From Balneolales bacterium (GTDB lineage Bacteria > Bacteroidota > Rhodothermia > Balneolales > Cyclonatronaceae): DNA of 64,000 bases. Position 1 is the first letter of the stretch. Each line of letters opens with the position of its first letter. The notes under the pieces are model-generated. The model made no database searches. It was not told the DNA's origin and worked only from the letters and a program-made list of their open reading frames with translations. The stretch is taken from contig JAFIET010000008.1 in assembly GCA_020832405.1 (NCBI GenBank), positions 1 to 64,000 of the forward strand, read 5' to 3'. Of the stretch, positions 3,401 through 10,065 are shown one piece after another. The translations under genes were made by a program, and so were the position numbers.

Positions 3401-3567
3401 GTTTGTCCGTAAATCGCAAAGGCGATGGCCTCGAGAATCGAAGATTTCCCCGAGCCTACCGTGCCGAATATGCCGAACAGCTGCGATTCGATCAGGCGCG
3501 TAAAATCAATGGTTTGGGCGGCCTGATACGAGTACAGGCCTTCAATCGTGAGTTTTTGGGGAATCAT
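469..3567 (-). CDS. sbcC: SbcC, ATPase subunit of the SbcCD nuclease (Rad50 family)
   Basis: This 1032-residue SMC/Rad50-type ATPase pairs with SbcD to process DNA ends, hairpins and protein-blocked ends. The Walker A motif GTVGSGKS lies at residues 35-42. Long charged coiled coils flank a CPLC zinc hook at 516-519. The ABC signature LSGGQ is at 932-936, followed by Walker B and D-loop (FFFLDEGFGSLD). All key motifs are intact and the length matches the family (about 1000-1050). Its ATG overlaps the stop of sbcD by four bases (ATGA), so the pair is translationally coupled with the nuclease first. Both are cytoplasmic and act at the nucleoid. The 656-residue ORF on the opposite strand is a composition artefact. 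Confidence 0.97.
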   Translation of the reverse strand: MIPQKLTIEGLYSYQAAQTIDFTRLIESQLFGIFGTVGSGKSSILEAIAFAIYGQTERLNQADGRNYNMMNLKSNRLLIDFECINAKLEHWRFVVEGKRNSRQFEKVNTFSRRILKREDDGSWTPVEDANPDDIIGLSYDNFRRTIIIPQGKFQEFLQLGATDRTRMLKEIFDLDRFEFSMQTGALINREKERSENLRGQLKQHEGLDEASITLQKEKLAALEEAVQTSDQTLGRLRKEESRLALIQQKAEMREKLARELAGMEARGAEIEDAETQLKAYEACVRIFAEPVRTAERLRAERDGLQASFDALSAEQQKVAGELGAAVRALDEIRPEYEKRDLRQREADDLSGMLRIRTEMESLDGLKEKLGAKKTQTQELAAKAEAAKGALDALQAKLREMEETAPDMAKLAEIRNWYVLRLGHKMQLDKAAHEAEAAQAELEKCRESFRRGCEKMELSLGILAEADAGTAELIALLMQDEELTGRDRVQAAQRCEQLAVQVKLEDFAGALEEGRACPLCGATHHPEPLHGKSAAQLKHARDVLKKLDERLEEIRKFTRGFDKLGGQLETAKTQLDKLQTKVRDAQGVLAEHLSAFVWSGFDPEDRAQLDAAFRAAEAHQASYRQGRAKRDADEKTLRGLQEELEALKADMQKLQDQAGKFEANIEAEIRQLKVLQWPDYGLMPSPEIKKQRDQILEKRSKTVEAFDKLEAAVRELENRQGEIKGSLEVVKRDLASRSAECKAAEETLQKLITDSDHAGLAAVKQVLDLRLDAEKLRGEILAFRERRSRIRTKLSELEAETGGQQFDAEAFEALRQQLKEEEAAHQNAVKELGAAQKELVRLEKNLGEKRELEQQLAQAEHRLGDLDTLRKLFARSGFVEYISTVYLRQLCEVANRRFYKLSRQQLRLELSADNKFEVRDFLNEGRLRSVKTLSGGQTFQASLCLALALAESVQSRSKSRQNFFFLDEGFGSLDRESLQTVFATLKSLREESRVVGIISHVEELQQEIDVFLKIGNDAQRGSRVYPSWQGLPG

Positions 3568-4805
3568 TGGCCGCCCTCCCTTTCGGCCGCACCCGACCGG
3601 ATTTCGCGGAACAGCGCCATGAGGCCTTCCCCCGGATCGAGGTTTGCGTTTTTGCTCCGGAAGTAGTCGGCGAACAGCTCCTCCATCGGGCGCTGCAGGT
3701 CGATCAGGCCGGCCTCCTCCTCCGGGGCCGCATCCTGCTGCCGCACATTCGGGATGATGGCCACGATGCCCTCATGCGCATCGTGCAGCTGCCGGGTTTC
3801 GTCGGCGTTGAGGTAGGTCTCGGTTGTAAGGCTCAGCTCCACCAGCGCCTGCGCGTTCTCGCGAAGCACGTGCAGCGCCTCGTCCATGCCCGTCGCCCGG
3901 AGGCGCTTCAGCGGGCGCCCGCTCTGCAGGGGGATGCGCTCCGTGCGCACAGGTCGGCCGGGTTCGGCATCGATCATCACCACGTACTTTTGCTGCTCGG
4001 CCTCGCTGAAGCTGTAGCTCAGCGGACTGCTGCTGTACACCACCGGCCGCTCGCCTTTCCGGATTTCGATGTAGCGGTGCAGGTGCCCCAAAGCGGTGTA
4101 CTGAACCTGCGGCGGGATGGCGTCGGCATATAGCTGCTGCGCCCCGCCTACGTGCAGCACCGGCTTCTCATCCTCGGGCTCTTCCAGTTTTTCACCGCTT
4201 GCCGGCGTAAAAAAAAGATGCGCGACCAGCAGATTTACCCCGGCCTCGTCGCAGTGCTTATCAGCCAGCGCCTTCCAGCGATCGGCGAGCTGGTCGCGCA
4301 GGTTTTGCTCCGCCGCCTCGAGCCCGAGAAAGGTCCTGAGGCGCTGCTCGTTCGCATAGGGTGCAAGGAGGATGCGCACCGGCGCCTGAACCCCGGGCAA
4401 GGCAAGCTCCGCAAATCCGGGTTCACTTTGGAGGATGCGCAGCCCGCTGCCCAGCTCAAAAACCGGAATCACGCTGTCGGGGTAGCCAGCCAGCAGTATG
4501 CCGCACTCCCGCGCAAGCGGATCAGGCGCGGCGATGCGGTCAGCGGAATCGTGATTGCCCGCGATGGCCACCACAGCCCGACGGCCGTCGGCTGAAAGCC
4601 GTTTCAGCGTCTTGTAAAACAGCTCGGTCGCCTGCGTTGGCGGGTTGAAGGTATCGAACAAATCGCCGGCAATCAGCACCAAATCGGCCTTCTGCGCTTC
4701 GGCGATGTCGCAGATTTCCTGCATCACCTGCCGCTGTTCATCGAGCCGCTCAAAGCGATCCAGCCGCTTGCCGAGGTGCCAGTCGGCCGTGTGTAAAATT
4801 CTCAT
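3564..4805 (-). CDS. sbcD: SbcD, Mre11-like nuclease subunit
   Basis: This 413-residue calcineurin-like metallophosphoesterase is the nuclease partner of SbcC. Metal-binding motifs are in order: DWHLGK (8-13), GDLFD (47-51), GNHD (82-85) and GHLH near residue 239. The C-terminal part is the capping domain typical of SbcD. The start ATG at 4805 is the first methionine and gives the canonical MRILHTADWHLGK opening. It is the first gene of the sbcD-sbcC pair, and the upstream 200 bases carry no gene before the palindromic repeat at 5009. The complex makes double-strand 3'-5' exonuclease and single-strand endonuclease cuts in the presence of Mn2+ and ATP, by family knowledge. Confidence 0.97.
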   Translation of the reverse strand: MRILHTADWHLGKRLDRFERLDEQRQVMQEICDIAEAQKADLVLIAGDLFDTFNPPTQATELFYKTLKRLSADGRRAVVAIAGNHDSADRIAAPDPLARECGILLAGYPDSVIPVFELGSGLRILQSEPGFAELALPGVQAPVRILLAPYANEQRLRTFLGLEAAEQNLRDQLADRWKALADKHCDEAGVNLLVAHLFFTPASGEKLEEPEDEKPVLHVGGAQQLYADAIPPQVQYTALGHLHRYIEIRKGERPVVYSSSPLSYSFSEAEQQKYVVMIDAEPGRPVRTERIPLQSGRPLKRLRATGMDEALHVLRENAQALVELSLTTETYLNADETRQLHDAHEGIVAIIPNVRQQDAAPEEEAGLIDLQRPMEELFADYFRSKNANLDPGEGLMALFREIRSGAAEREGGQ

Positions 4806-5008
4806 GGTAGGTTTTCGGGTGAAGGCATCCCAAACCGGTCAGGCAGCGGACGCATCAAAAAATTTGGTAAGTAGCCTCCTATAATCCTGAAACTGTGCTG
4901 TGAATGCAAGAACAAAAACGGGGGAGTTGTACGGGCGAATCGAATCAAATCAGCCGGGCAGTCCGCGGGTTACTCCTTCCGGGATAATCAAAGGCTGAAA
5001 TCAATTTT

Positions 5009-5047
5009 TTTATGTAATTTGGAAATTGAACTTCCAAATTGCATAAA
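5009..5047. repeat. 39-bp palindromic repeat, copy A
   Basis: Left arm TTTATGTAATTTGGAA (5009-5024), 7-base spacer, right arm TTCCAAATTGCATAAA (5032-5047). The arms pair over 16 positions with one mismatch, and two further T/A pairs extend the stem. A second copy with 38 of 39 bases identical lies at 6254-6292, in the same orientation, on the other side of the ATPase gene. The right arm ends one base before the ATG at 5049, so the hairpin would form the 5' leader of that gene. Confidence 0.9.
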
Positions 5048-5048
5048 A

Positions 5049-6239
5049 ATGATCGCAAGAGACCTCACCCGAAAAATTTCCGGCCTGATTAAAAAGTTTC
5101 CGATGCTTGCCGTGCTTGGTCCGCGCCAATCGGGAAAAACCACGCTCCTCCGGGCGCTGTTTCCGGCTTATGCCTACGTTAATCTTGAACTCCCCGAAAC
5201 AAGAGCATATGCCGCTTCTGACCCCCGCGGATTTCTTGAACGCTACCAAAAGGGCGTCATTCTGGACGAGATTCAAAACGTGCCGGACTTGTTTTCGTAC
5301 TTGCAGGTTTTCACGGATGAACGCGGGATCAACGGGGAGTATGTGCTCACCGGATCGCAGCATTTTCTGATGATGGAGCAAATCTCCCAATCTCTTGCCG
5401 GGCGGGTCGCACTGCTTTACCTGATGCCGTTTTCAGCCCGGGAGCTTCATCAGGGAGAAAAGCCACAAAACTGGGAGCGCCTTATTTTTTACGGCGGTTA
5501 CCCCCGCATTTTCGATCAGCACATTCATCCTGCCGATTTCTATCCGGCCTACATTCAAACCTACATTGAGCGGGATGTGCGTAAGCTTCAGAATGTTGCC
5601 AACCTGAATCAGTTTCGGAAATTCCTGATGCTGCTTGCAGGCCGTGCGGGGCAGCTCCTGAACGTGAACAGCCTCGCTGCCGATGCCGGCATCAGCAACC
5701 ACACTGCCGAAGCGTGGATCAGACTGCTCGAAGCTTCATTTATCGTTTTCCGGCTGCCGCCTTACTTCAAAAATTTCAACAAGCGGGTAATAAAATCACC
5801 AAAACTGTACTTCTGTGATACGGGCCTGCTCTGCAGTCTGCTCGGGCTTCGCAGGCAGGCTGATGCCGAGCTCCACTTTATGCGGGGCGCCTTGTTTGAA
5901 AACCTCGTGCTTCTTGAGTTCCGGAAATTCCTGTCGAATGCCGGCGAAAAGCCTGACCTTTATTTTTGGCGGGATTCGAATCAAAACGAAATTGACCTGC
6001 TTTTTGAGCGCAACGGCAGTCTGCACGCCTGCGAAATCAAGAGCGGAAAAACCATCACTAAAGATTATTTCAAAGGCCTTACTAAATTTCAAAAAATACA
6101 GCCCGAAACCCGTCTGCATCTTATCTACGGCGGAGTCGAGCAGTACGAACAGCTGGGCATCCGGATAACAGGCTTCACACATCTCACCGGTTCTGCACTT
6201 CCGGCCATATTTACTGAGGAAACGGAAGACGCCGAATGA
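5049..6239 (+). CDS. AAA-type ATPase with C-terminal DUF4143 / PD-(D/E)XK-like domain
   Basis: Predicted 396-residue P-loop ATPase of the large, often multi-copy prokaryotic family annotated as ATP-binding protein or DUF4143 protein. The Walker A motif GPRQSGKT is at 24-31, Walker B GVILDEIQ at 69-76, and a sensor-like LTGSQHF near 105. The C-terminal region contains NEIDLLF followed by ACEIKSGK, which resembles a PD-(D/E)XK nuclease core (D, E-x-K). The function of the family is not established. I chose ATG 5049 (MIARDLTRKISGL, the usual family opening) over the in-frame TTG at 5019, which lies inside the palindrome. The gene stands alone between two near-identical palindromes and is opposite in strand to both neighbours, so it looks like an inserted unit. 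Confidence 0.85.
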   Translation: MIARDLTRKISGLIKKFPMLAVLGPRQSGKTTLLRALFPAYAYVNLELPETRAYAASDPRGFLERYQKGVILDEIQNVPDLFSYLQVFTDERGINGEYVLTGSQHFLMMEQISQSLAGRVALLYLMPFSARELHQGEKPQNWERLIFYGGYPRIFDQHIHPADFYPAYIQTYIERDVRKLQNVANLNQFRKFLMLLAGRAGQLLNVNSLAADAGISNHTAEAWIRLLEASFIVFRLPPYFKNFNKRVIKSPKLYFCDTGLLCSLLGLRRQADAELHFMRGALFENLVLLEFRKFLSNAGEKPDLYFWRDSNQNEIDLLFERNGSLHACEIKSGKTITKDYFKGLTKFQKIQPETRLHLIYGGVEQYEQLGIRITGFTHLTGSALPAIFTEETEDAE

Positions 6240-6253
6240 CAGCACGCTTCACT

Positions 6254-6292
6254 TTTATGTAATTTGGAAATTGAACTTCCATATTGCATAAA
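6254..6292. repeat. 39-bp palindromic repeat, copy B
   Basis: Same sequence and orientation as copy A at 5009-5047 except for one base in the right arm (ATATT for AAATT). It begins 14 bases after the ATPase stop codon. The two copies bound a segment of about 1.2 kb holding only that gene. Confidence 0.9.
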
Positions 6293-6322
6293 ATCTCGGC
6301 TCCATCACCCTTCCAAAAAAAC

Positions 6323-6359
6323 AACAAAGCCCCGTCGCTGTTGGCAACGGGGCTTTGTT
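6323..6359. terminator. Bidirectional rho-independent terminator
   Basis: A 13-bp perfect stem (AACAAAGCCCCGT, 11-base loop, ACGGGGCTTTGTT) lies between the convergent ATPase and kgd genes. On the minus strand it is followed by a seven-T run, so it mainly ends kgd. On the plus strand a short T run follows. Confidence 0.88.
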
Positions 6360-6387: not shown

Positions 6388-9300
6388 TTACTTCAGGGCT
6401 TCGGCCACAAGTTTTTCCTGCTCGGCGGTGTGCAGCTTCATGGTTCCGGCAGCCGGAGAAGCCGACGGGAAACGGCCCGCGTATTTGATCTGATAGTCAT
6501 CTTTCAGGTCGTACTCAAAGCGGGAGCGGATGTAGGTCCATGCGCCCATGTTGCGGGGTTCTTCCTGACACCACACAATTTCCCTGAGGTTCGGGTACTG
6601 ACTGATCTCCGCGCGCACGTCTGCATCCGGGAACGGGTAGTACTGCTCGATGCGCACGAGCGCGATATCTTTGGCTTCCGTTTCCTTGCGCTTGTTGTAC
6701 AGGTCGTAGTACACCTTGCCGGAACAGAACACGATTTTGCGCACATCAGAAGCATTCACCTCAGCATCACCTAACACGTAGTTGAAGCGGCCGTTTGCCA
6801 GCTCCTCGGTGCTGGAAACTGCCAGCGGGTGCCGCAGCAGGCTCTTCGGTGTGAACAGAATGGTTGGCTTCTTGTTGGGCGAAAGGGCCTGACGGCGAAT
6901 CAGGTGGAACAGCTGCGCCGGGGTCGTACAGTTGCAGATGCGCATGTTGTCTTCCGCGCAAAGCTGCAGGAAGCGCTCAATACGAGCCGAGGAGTGCTCC
7001 GGGCCCTGACCTTCATAGCCATGCGGCAGGAGCATCATCAGGCTTGAGGTCTGCCGCCATTTGGTTTCAGACGACGACAGGTACTGATCGATGATGATTT
7101 GCGCGCCGTTCACGAAATCGCCGAACTGAGCTTCCCAAAGCACCAGCGATTCCGGCCGCGATGCGCTGTAGCCGAATTCATAGCCAAGGGCCGCGAACTC
7201 ACTCAGCAGGCTGTTGTACACCTGAAACTTCGCCTGCCCCTCATCAAGATGGTTAAGCGGCGTGAACTTCTGACTCGTTTCGGTACCGTGCAGCACGGCG
7301 TGCCGGTGGGAAAAAGTACCGCGCTCAGAATCCTGACCGGCAAGGCGAATCGGCACGCCCTGCACCAGCAAACTGCCGAAAGCCAGCGCTTCGCCGTAGC
7401 CCCAATCGATTTTCTTCTGGTTTTTCTCCACAATTTCACTGCGTTTGGCAAGAATGCGCAGCAGTTTGGGGTTGGCATCAAAATCAGACGGAACCGTATT
7501 GATTTTGTAAGCAATATCAATCAGCTTCTGCGAATCAATTGAGGTATTGGTTACCTTATTGCGTTCACTTTGGCTGCTGTACTTCCGCAAGGTGTCTTTC
7601 TCGCCGATCTGATAGCTTGGCAGCGATTTGGCATCATTGAAAGCCTGCTCGAGAATTTCGTCGAACTCTTTGAAGATTTCGTCAACTTCCTCCTGCGAGA
7701 GTTCTTTTTTGCGAAGCAGCTCCTGCGTGTAAATTTCGCGTACCTGCGGGTGATCCTTAATTTCGCGGTACAGGCCCGGCTGTGTGAATGCGGGCTCGTC
7801 GCCCTCATTGTGGCCGTGCTTGCGGTAGCAGATGAGGTCGATCACCACATCCTTTCCGAAACGCTGACGGTAGTCGAGGGCGAGGTTCATGGCATGAACA
7901 CAGGCTTCGGGGTCGTCGCCATTTACGTGGAAAATCGGGGCCAGAATCATCTTGGCCAGATCGGAGGCGTAGCGTGTTGAGCGGCCGTCTTGCGGCAGGG
8001 TTGTGAACCCGATCTGATTGTTGATAATCAGATGGATGGTACCGCCGGTCTTGTAGCCCTTCAGCTGCGACATGGTGAGGGTTTCGGCCACAACGCCCTG
8101 TCCGGCGAAGGCGGCATCCCCGTGGATGAGCAGCGGGATAACCTTGCTGCCGCTGTCCTCATTGTTCTCGCTGATGAGGTCCTGCTTGGCGCGCACCGCT
8201 CCTTCCACAACCGGATTCACCGATTCGAGGTGCGAGGGGTTGGGCATCAGCTCAAGCTTGATTTCTTTGCCGTCAGCTGTTTTGAAAATACTGCGGGTAC
8301 CGAGGTGATATTTCACATCACCGGAGCCCTGCGCGCTGTCGGGATCGATATTTCCTTCGAACTCAGAAAAAATCTGCTTATAAGATTTGCCCATAATGTT
8401 CACGAGCACGTTCAGACGGCCGCGGTGTGCCATCCCGAAAACGACTTCCTCAACACCGTAACCGCCGGCCCGCTCAAGCATGTGGTTGATGGTCGGGATT
8501 ACCGACTCAGCTCCTTCCAGCGAGAAGCGCTTATGGCCGATGTATTTCTTGTGGAGGAACTCCTCAAACGCAGATGCCTGATTGAGTTTCTTGAGGATGA
8601 GGCGGCGGTCTTCTTTATCGAGATCCGGCACGTTCAGCGTGCTTTCCATGCTGTCGGTGAGCCAGTTGCGCTCACTCAGGTTCAGAATATGCGTGTACTC
8701 GGCGCCGATTTTGCCGCAATAGGTATCGCGCAGCAGGCTCACGATATCGCGAAGCGGTGCCTTTTCGAGGCCGCCGAGACCGCCGCAGTAAAACTCGCGG
8801 TCCATATCCCACATGGTGAGGCCATGATACTCGTAATCCAGCTCGGGATGATGGCCGGGGCCGTGCTTCAGCGGATTGATGTTGGCCAACACATGCCCGT
8901 GCGTGCGGTACATATTGATGAGATTGAGTACCGAAACAGCCTTTTTGGTAGCGGCAAGATTGTCGGCATTGCCGCCAATGAGTCCGGAGTAATTATCGCG
9001 TCCAAACGGAATCGGATCGTAAGGAATATCCAGATCCGCGAAAATGGAGTCGTAAAAATCGCCGTTGCCGGTAAGCAGCGTATGAATTTTGGACAGGAAC
9101 ATGCCGCTCTCCGCGCCCTGAATGATGCGGTGATCGTAGGTGCTCGTCATGGTCATCACCTTGCTGATACCAAGATGATTCAGCAGCTCTTCGGACATCG
9201 ACTGAAACTCAGCGGGGTAATCCATAGCGCCGGTGGCCACGATGGTGCCCTGCCCTTTCATCAGGCGGGGCAGCGAGGAAACTGTGCCTATGGTACCGGG

Positions 9301-10065
9301 ATTGGTGATGCTGATGGTTGTTCCCTGAAAATCGGGCACATCCAGCTGACCGTTACGGGCACGGGCGATCAGCTCGTAATAGGCGTGCAGGAACTCCCGG
9401 AAAGTCATCTTGTCAACTTTCTTGATGTTGGCAACCACCAGATTGCGGGAGCCGCCCTTGCCGGGCAGGTCGATCGCGATGCCGAGGTTCACATCATTGG
9501 GGTACACCTTCACGGGGCGCCCTTTTTCGTCGGTATCGTAGTAGGCGTTCATGGAAGGCACCTCCTTCAGCGCACGGATAACCGCCCAGCCGATAAAATG
9601 GGTGAAGGTCGCCTTCGGCTCGCCGCGCTCGGTGAGGTGTTTGTTGATGATGTTCCGGTCTTCAAACAGCATTTTAACCGGAATTACGCGCAGCGAGGTA
9701 GCGGTAGGAAGTTCGAGACTTTCATCCATATTCTCCGCGATTTTCGCTGAAGCACCGCGCAAAGGCTCGATCCGCACATCATCAGATTTTTCAGCGGGTT
9801 TCTTCGCAGCTTTGGCAGCCGGGGCGGCCTTGGCTTCAGGGGCTTTGGGGGCAGGCGGCTGTGCAACCGCTGAACCGTTGGTTGCGGCCTTCGCCTGTGC
9901 AGCAGGCTGAGCGGCCACAACAGAACCGTCGCCGAGCTTGCTGAGATATTCGTCAAAATAATTGCGCCAGTATTCAGGAACCGAATCCGGATCTTCCTGA
10001 TATTGTTTTAATAATTCTTCGACAAGGGCTGCATTCGGGCCAAATAATTCTTCAAGTGACTTCAA
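6388..10065 (-). CDS. kgd: Multifunctional 2-oxoglutarate decarboxylase / dehydrogenase E1 with fused E2 succinyltransferase domain
   Basis: This 1225-residue TCA-cycle enzyme has a short OGDH-type N-terminal helix (LEELFGPNAALVEELLKQYQ). An Ala/Pro/Lys-rich linker follows (about 50-95). Next comes an acyltransferase (E2) catalytic domain with the active-site His312 in TYDHRIIQGAESG. The thiamine-diphosphate E1 domain completes it, with HRGRLNVL and GDAAFAGQG (about residue 649) and a C-terminal transketolase-like half. There is no lipoyl domain. This is the OdhA/Kgd architecture best known from Actinobacteria, which needs a separate lipoylated partner for full dehydrogenase activity. The start is a TTG (10063-10065). 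No ATG lies in frame nearby and there is no clear Shine-Dalgarno. A terminator lies at 6323-6359. Confidence 0.95.
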   Translation of the reverse strand: MKSLEELFGPNAALVEELLKQYQEDPDSVPEYWRNYFDEYLSKLGDGSVVAAQPAAQAKAATNGSAVAQPPAPKAPEAKAAPAAKAAKKPAEKSDDVRIEPLRGASAKIAENMDESLELPTATSLRVIPVKMLFEDRNIINKHLTERGEPKATFTHFIGWAVIRALKEVPSMNAYYDTDEKGRPVKVYPNDVNLGIAIDLPGKGGSRNLVVANIKKVDKMTFREFLHAYYELIARARNGQLDVPDFQGTTISITNPGTIGTVSSLPRLMKGQGTIVATGAMDYPAEFQSMSEELLNHLGISKVMTMTSTYDHRIIQGAESGMFLSKIHTLLTGNGDFYDSIFADLDIPYDPIPFGRDNYSGLIGGNADNLAATKKAVSVLNLINMYRTHGHVLANINPLKHGPGHHPELDYEYHGLTMWDMDREFYCGGLGGLEKAPLRDIVSLLRDTYCGKIGAEYTHILNLSERNWLTDSMESTLNVPDLDKEDRRLILKKLNQASAFEEFLHKKYIGHKRFSLEGAESVIPTINHMLERAGGYGVEEVVFGMAHRGRLNVLVNIMGKSYKQIFSEFEGNIDPDSAQGSGDVKYHLGTRSIFKTADGKEIKLELMPNPSHLESVNPVVEGAVRAKQDLISENNEDSGSKVIPLLIHGDAAFAGQGVVAETLTMSQLKGYKTGGTIHLIINNQIGFTTLPQDGRSTRYASDLAKMILAPIFHVNGDDPEACVHAMNLALDYRQRFGKDVVIDLICYRKHGHNEGDEPAFTQPGLYREIKDHPQVREIYTQELLRKKELSQEEVDEIFKEFDEILEQAFNDAKSLPSYQIGEKDTLRKYSSQSERNKVTNTSIDSQKLIDIAYKINTVPSDFDANPKLLRILAKRSEIVEKNQKKIDWGYGEALAFGSLLVQGVPIRLAGQDSERGTFSHRHAVLHGTETSQKFTPLNHLDEGQAKFQVYNSLLSEFAALGYEFGYSASRPESLVLWEAQFGDFVNGAQIIIDQYLSSSETKWRQTSSLMMLLPHGYEGQGPEHSSARIERFLQLCAEDNMRICNCTTPAQLFHLIRRQALSPNKKPTILFTPKSLLRHPLAVSSTEELANGRFNYVLGDAEVNASDVRKIVFCSGKVYYDLYNKRKETEAKDIALVRIEQYYPFPDADVRAEISQYPNLREIVWCQEEPRNMGAWTYIRSRFEYDLKDDYQIKYAGRFPSASPAAGTMKLHTAEQEKLVAEALK

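Follow-up and report, generated by a model that had tools for sequence, protein, structure and literature searches.

The question raised by this locus is why a single ATPase gene should stand between two nearly identical palindromes, one of which touches its start codon. The locus lies in a 64,000-nucleotide stretch of DNA from a Balneolales bacterium (contig JAFIET010000008.1, positions 1 to 64,000 of the forward strand), which is here called the window. A first-pass annotation had taken gene and palindromes for a small mobile or self-regulated unit. Self-regulation is now well supported, mobility through the palindromes themselves is not, and mobility of operator and gene together has some support. 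We read the palindrome as an autoregulatory operator of the adjoining gene, one that would be recognized by the winged helix of the encoded protein, and put the probability of this reading at roughly 0.8.

The encoded protein resembles the candidate defence family PDC-S01 over almost its whole length. In PDC-S01 an ATPase is joined to a domain of the PD-(D/E)XK superfamily; the family ranks as the fourth commonest defence across prokaryotes and is a candidate without experimental validation, its trigger, target and regulation all being without a known answer (PMC12988326). A search of open-access journal papers found no publication that links this family with a palindrome of its own, with control of its own expression, with a recognition code or with mobility.

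Features of the locus

The features of the locus, in window coordinates and with the basis of each assignment in brackets, are as follows.

5007..5049, plus strand: copy A, a 43-nt palindrome adjoining the start codon, putative operator (palindrome scan and family recognition code)
5049..6239, plus strand: AAA_14-DUF4143 ATPase gene, 396 aa, PADLOC PDC-S01 candidate defence family (open reading frame and profile matches)
5049..5453, plus strand: AAA+ ATPase core, residues 1-135, with Walker A (GPRQSGKT) and Walker B (profile, alignment, AlphaFold2 model)
5604..5816, plus strand: winged-helix domain, residues about 186-256, recognition helix 217-229 (AlphaFold2 model)
5694..5702, plus strand: codons 216-218, encoding Ser-Asn-His where the recognition helix begins; of all columns, 218 is the best predictor of the palindrome bases (co-variation)
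5817..6173, plus strand: PD-(D/E)XK nuclease-like domain with invariant E284, E314, D316, E329 and K331 (alignment, profile, model)
6253..6293, plus strand: copy B, the second palindrome copy, 14 nt past the stop codon (40/41 identity to copy A)
6323..6359, minus strand: terminator hairpin of the convergent neighbour (common to the sister genome)

The two near-identical palindromes in the same orientation, first described as 39 bp with 38 matches, are real, and their extent is corrected to a direct repeat of 41 bp (5008-5048 and 6253-6293) with 40 matching positions; the match is not a chance product (0 in 100 shuffles). The palindrome of copy A reaches as far as position 5049, the first base of the ATG. 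As originally noted, the DUF4143-type ATPase is the sole gene between the two copies and lies on the strand opposite to both neighbours, namely an sbcD-like gene upstream (3564-4805, minus strand) and a 2-oxoglutarate dehydrogenase E1-like gene downstream (6388-10065, minus strand). Remnants of a second gene were searched for beyond copy B in the window and none were found. The terminator hairpin at 6323..6359 is shared with the sister genome and therefore lies outside the acquired stretch.

The protein passes the curated cut-offs of DUF4143 (172.5 bits, cut-off 28.1) and AAA_14 (97.1, cut-off 27), and the PADLOC PDC-S01 models match its residues 1-351 (E=1.2e-100). Its AlphaFold2 model (pLDDT 86) comprises the AAA+ core, the winged helix and the PD-(D/E)XK domain. 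The closest solved folds found with Foldseek, at low TM-scores, are MalT, an archaeal Walker ATPase and Cdc6/Orc1 on origin DNA, and a sequence search yielded no full-length homologue among solved structures. Profile and fold searches found no transposase or recombinase fold in the protein.

Palindromes across the gene family

The genome to which the window belongs has 16 DUF4143 genes, nearly all of which carry their own distinct palindrome or inverted repeats just 5' of the start codon, often in two or three copies; two examples are a perfect 58-bp palindrome (L011) and a perfect 39-bp palindrome (L015). The idea that such genes occur as many near-identical copies per genome was not borne out, as a DNA search with the unit returned only itself and the nearest paralogue has 47% protein identity.

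For the wider family, 153 distinct AAA_14-DUF4143 genes from relatives in the phylum were compared with 212 other genes from the same loci as controls, a palindrome being called at a score of at least 10 in the region before the start codon. This score was reached by 54% of the family genes versus 10% of the controls (Mann-Whitney p=4e-25), and about a third of the family genes were without a clear palindrome in the same scan. The median distance from the end of the palindrome to the ATG was 12 nt. Plasmid-borne relatives in Runella, Emticicia and Moraxella are likewise preceded by a palindrome. The pairing of protein and palindrome recurs, with a different palindrome each time, at most genes of this widespread family, and the palindrome is very probably a DNA switch read by the gene's own protein. 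In most relatives it is just the 5' end of the gene that has the palindrome, and palindromes at both gene ends were seen in about 5 independent cases among 94.

On viral contigs the window protein as query gave 0 matches and an alignment query gave 13 loci; at two of the loci on viral contigs, both belonging to other groups, the palindrome coincides with a sigma-70-like site, although shuffles already yield about 0.5 such sites. By visual inspection, Alphaproteobacterial DUF4143 genes on rhizobial plasmids (L278-L286 and L289) are without palindromes and have phased, iteron-like direct repeats upstream, e.g., TTTAAATTAGACG and AATTGGACG, at a spacing of about 22-23 bp. On the Emticicia plasmid pEMTOL02, an arabinose operon is interrupted by a DUF4143 gene with its palindrome (L277), which runs on the opposite strand and has araA on one side and the gene for ribulose-phosphate epimerase on the other.

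Putative recognition code

Palindrome similarity tracks protein identity within the family (Mantel r=0.45, 0 of 2000 permutations), whereas the 45 nt beside the palindrome and the stretch past the stop codon do not rise above background, not even between proteins that share 60-75% identity. A column-wise partial Mantel analysis (about 320 columns) placed residues 216, 238 and 218 on top as those that best account for palindrome similarity once overall identity is allowed for; they map to the start of the recognition helix and to the wing. In the subfamily of the window gene, Lys218 pairs with C at the fifth base from the dyad (C5) and other residues pair with T. This rule was recorded as a prediction before new homologues were fetched for its test. 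Among the latter, C5 was present in all seven Lys218 proteins (in both arms in six) and missing in 31 of the 32 non-Lys proteins. Regarding 64 sequences, residue 218 was the first of 318 columns, with 1.86 bits on bases 5-6, the runner-up having 1.37. As the sequences are related, the p-values are too small and a count on the tree is the safer figure: on a helix-masked tree, Lys218 changes numbered 5 and C5 changes 7, with only 7 joint changes, so that every Lys218 change coincides with a base change.

Typical pairs are Lys218 with AATTC(C/G), Asn218 (in Ser-Val-Asn) with ATTGCAAA, Gln218 with AACTTGAA, Pro218 with AATTTT(G/A)AA and Val218 with AACTTTAAT. The window protein has His218, typically paired with AACTTCCAAA, a rare residue (2 cases) for which the code is weakly calibrated. 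Among plasmid homologues added later, the Lys rule holds in L274 and the Asn218 subrule fails in L277. Judging from the co-variation, operator specificity appears to be encoded in the protein's own DNA-binding helix, and the best explanation is that each family member forms its own protein-palindrome pair, which keeps the paralogues (16 here) insulated from one another.

Proposed autoregulation

A palindrome that adjoins a start codon, is read by the encoded protein and occurs nowhere else has the anatomy of an autoregulatory operator. In the mechanism that we propose, the recognition helix of this ORC/STAND-like AAA+ ATPase would contact the half-sites of the palindrome overlapping the translation start, and the protein would most likely repress, or possibly activate, its own transcription and be held at a low level of its own setting. 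Of the two signs repression is the likelier, as the site spans the start of translation and probably that of transcription as well; given the match to a defence candidate, self-repression of a potentially harmful nuclease would be a reasonable purpose. ATP or signals of DNA damage or phage may alter the regulation. Operator and gene would be inherited and relocated as one compact unit, and copy B is probably a duplicate that arose when an insertion or rearrangement placed the unit here; it may act as a second binding site.

A DNA site matched to each member, together with a code of one residue to two bases, makes PDC-S01 a testable system, in which cognate protein-palindrome pairs can be predicted from sequence and binding, repression and de-repression can be assayed directly. 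The main value of the locus is seen in this family-wide operator code, the mobile reading discussed below being plausible but secondary.

Comparison with known systems

In antitoxins and in the C proteins of restriction systems, a palindromic operator at the gene start is read by the encoded protein, and its specificity insulates paralogues. The window system is alike in its palindromic site at its own start codon but differs in that one 396-aa protein is proposed to act as sensor ATPase, operator reader and nuclease, without a partner gene. Cdc6/Orc1 initiators and MalT (STAND) share with it an AAA+ core followed by a winged helix (Foldseek 8bob, 2qby), a likeness of domain order with low TM-scores (0.26-0.27), but do not have the PD-(D/E)XK domain in the arrangement of the window protein. 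Orc1/Cdc6 proteins bind inverted-repeat boxes that often adjoin their own gene.

Mobility and direct repeats

Insertion sequences and transposons resemble the unit in small size, in empty sites in relatives and in direct repeats around some copies, whereas the DUF4143 family is without a transposase fold, has a palindrome that is mostly one-ended and has no target-site duplication of fixed length (repeats of about 28-450 bp). The window palindromes are not ordinary transposon ends. A transposition-competent cassette bounded by the palindromes, as suggested by the first-pass annotation, does not agree with their distribution: a search of the whole genome found no further site, and at up to 3 mismatches the palindrome was absent from all other genomes among 127 of the order, so that it occurs at this gene alone, the very outcome that the first-pass annotation had named as making mobility unlikely. 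In four sister species the two neighbours are 86-140 bp apart, and these empty sites contain neither gene nor palindrome; in a fifth, the orthologous locus is occupied by an unrelated insert of 11 kb. The gene was accordingly either gained here or lost there; the left flank of the unit can be aligned to the sister genome with the insert up to about 80 bp before copy A.

The palindromes could still be the ends of a self-mobilizing single-gene element, whose protein would bind and cut its own palindrome and whose unit would insert elsewhere, leaving long direct repeats. We consider this unlikely, although several observations speak for it. Direct repeats within 600 bp enclose 23 of 144 family genes (16%) versus 0 of 110 control genes, the latter being unmatched for accessory status. 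Such repeats are often duplicated parts of a gene next door: at three loci (L085, L109 and L155) an intact neighbouring gene starts with one of the repeat copies, the second copy being a truncated duplicate, which is what an insertion with a long target duplication would leave. A plasmid unit of 1.47 kb (from about 0.2 kb 5' of the reading frame to 20 bp past it) was found at 95% identity in unrelated flanks, and the sister species without the gene and the invariant nuclease residues also fit. Several cases come from single-contig genomes (L168, L174 and L177 in G001; L082 in G194) and are therefore no assembly artefacts.

Against the element stand the scarcity of palindromes at both gene ends and the nature of the repeats, which differ in sequence, usually leave the palindrome outside and are unlike the fixed duplications made by transposases; in about five independent cases, the 41-bp repeat of the window among them, the palindrome lies inside the repeated stretch. 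A rhizobial tra region is known with and without a DUF4143 gene, the occupied sites are missing about 210 bp of the target, and the one site compared has no duplication. Genome searches, including the 127 genomes of the order, found no lone palindromes without an accompanying gene, and repair-driven capture would give an identical picture. A bolder version, in which PDC-S01 genes are a new class of selfish element that represses itself through a private palindrome and whose nuclease and ATPase copy operator and gene into new sites, with a target duplication of tens to hundreds of bp that restores an intact target gene on one side, is speculative and rather improbable. Under our preferred reading of the palindrome as an operator, switch and gene appear to travel together between genome positions, a view supported by the gain relative to the sister species, the 95% identical plasmid unit and the repeats around family genes, and if the direct repeats around 16% of the members are insertion scars, the spread of the family is explained.

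The DUF4143 genes L137, L106, L172, L100, L086, L159 and L168, too, are enclosed by direct repeats of neighbouring sequence. Another such gene of the window genome, L016 (G000:C41:58287-60060), is flanked by direct repeats that agree at 83% over 181 nt, with a perfect 33-bp repeat inside, and whose 29-base core occurs at those two sites of the genome only. In the conjugation region of two Sinorhizobium plasmids (L280 and L294), a DUF4143 gene stands in place of part of a DUF5615 PIN-like gene that neighbours DUF433.

Other explanations

Control at the RNA level, with the palindrome forming a 5' hairpin over the ribosome-binding region, would suit its closeness to the ATG but has little probability. 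Among mismatched palindrome pairs, G.U is not significantly favoured on the sense strand (60 vs 45, p=0.17), copies also occur 3' of the gene, and base identity follows the DNA-binding helix. Moreover, tandem palindrome copies, present in 52 genes, are spaced by 22-23, 32-34, 41-42 or 51-54 bp in 49 of them, i.e., by two, three, four or five helical turns, which is explained by proteins that sit on the same side of the DNA and not by hairpins.

Palindromes 5' of genes are usually regulator sites, and the site might hence be the operator of a host regulator acting in trans; this has very little probability, since each paralogue has its own sequence, the site has no further occurrence in the genome and its bases vary together with the helix of the gene's own product. 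That the palindrome is an ordinary dispersed intergenic repeat (REP/MITE-like) or due to chance is hardly credible, one such repeat being present in the sister genome but the two copies in the 127 genomes both lying at the window locus and the palindrome enrichment being strong across the family.

The sole exact match to the palindrome in 85,000 genomes (L043) lies 3' of an enolase gene, without a DUF4143 gene, and is attributed to chance. A dispersed repeat with ATTATTCACCAAGAAATTTTC has 94 matches in the sister species G001 (e.g., C1:3415645) and 0 in the window genome; one copy of it sits in the 11-kb insert at the orthologous locus.
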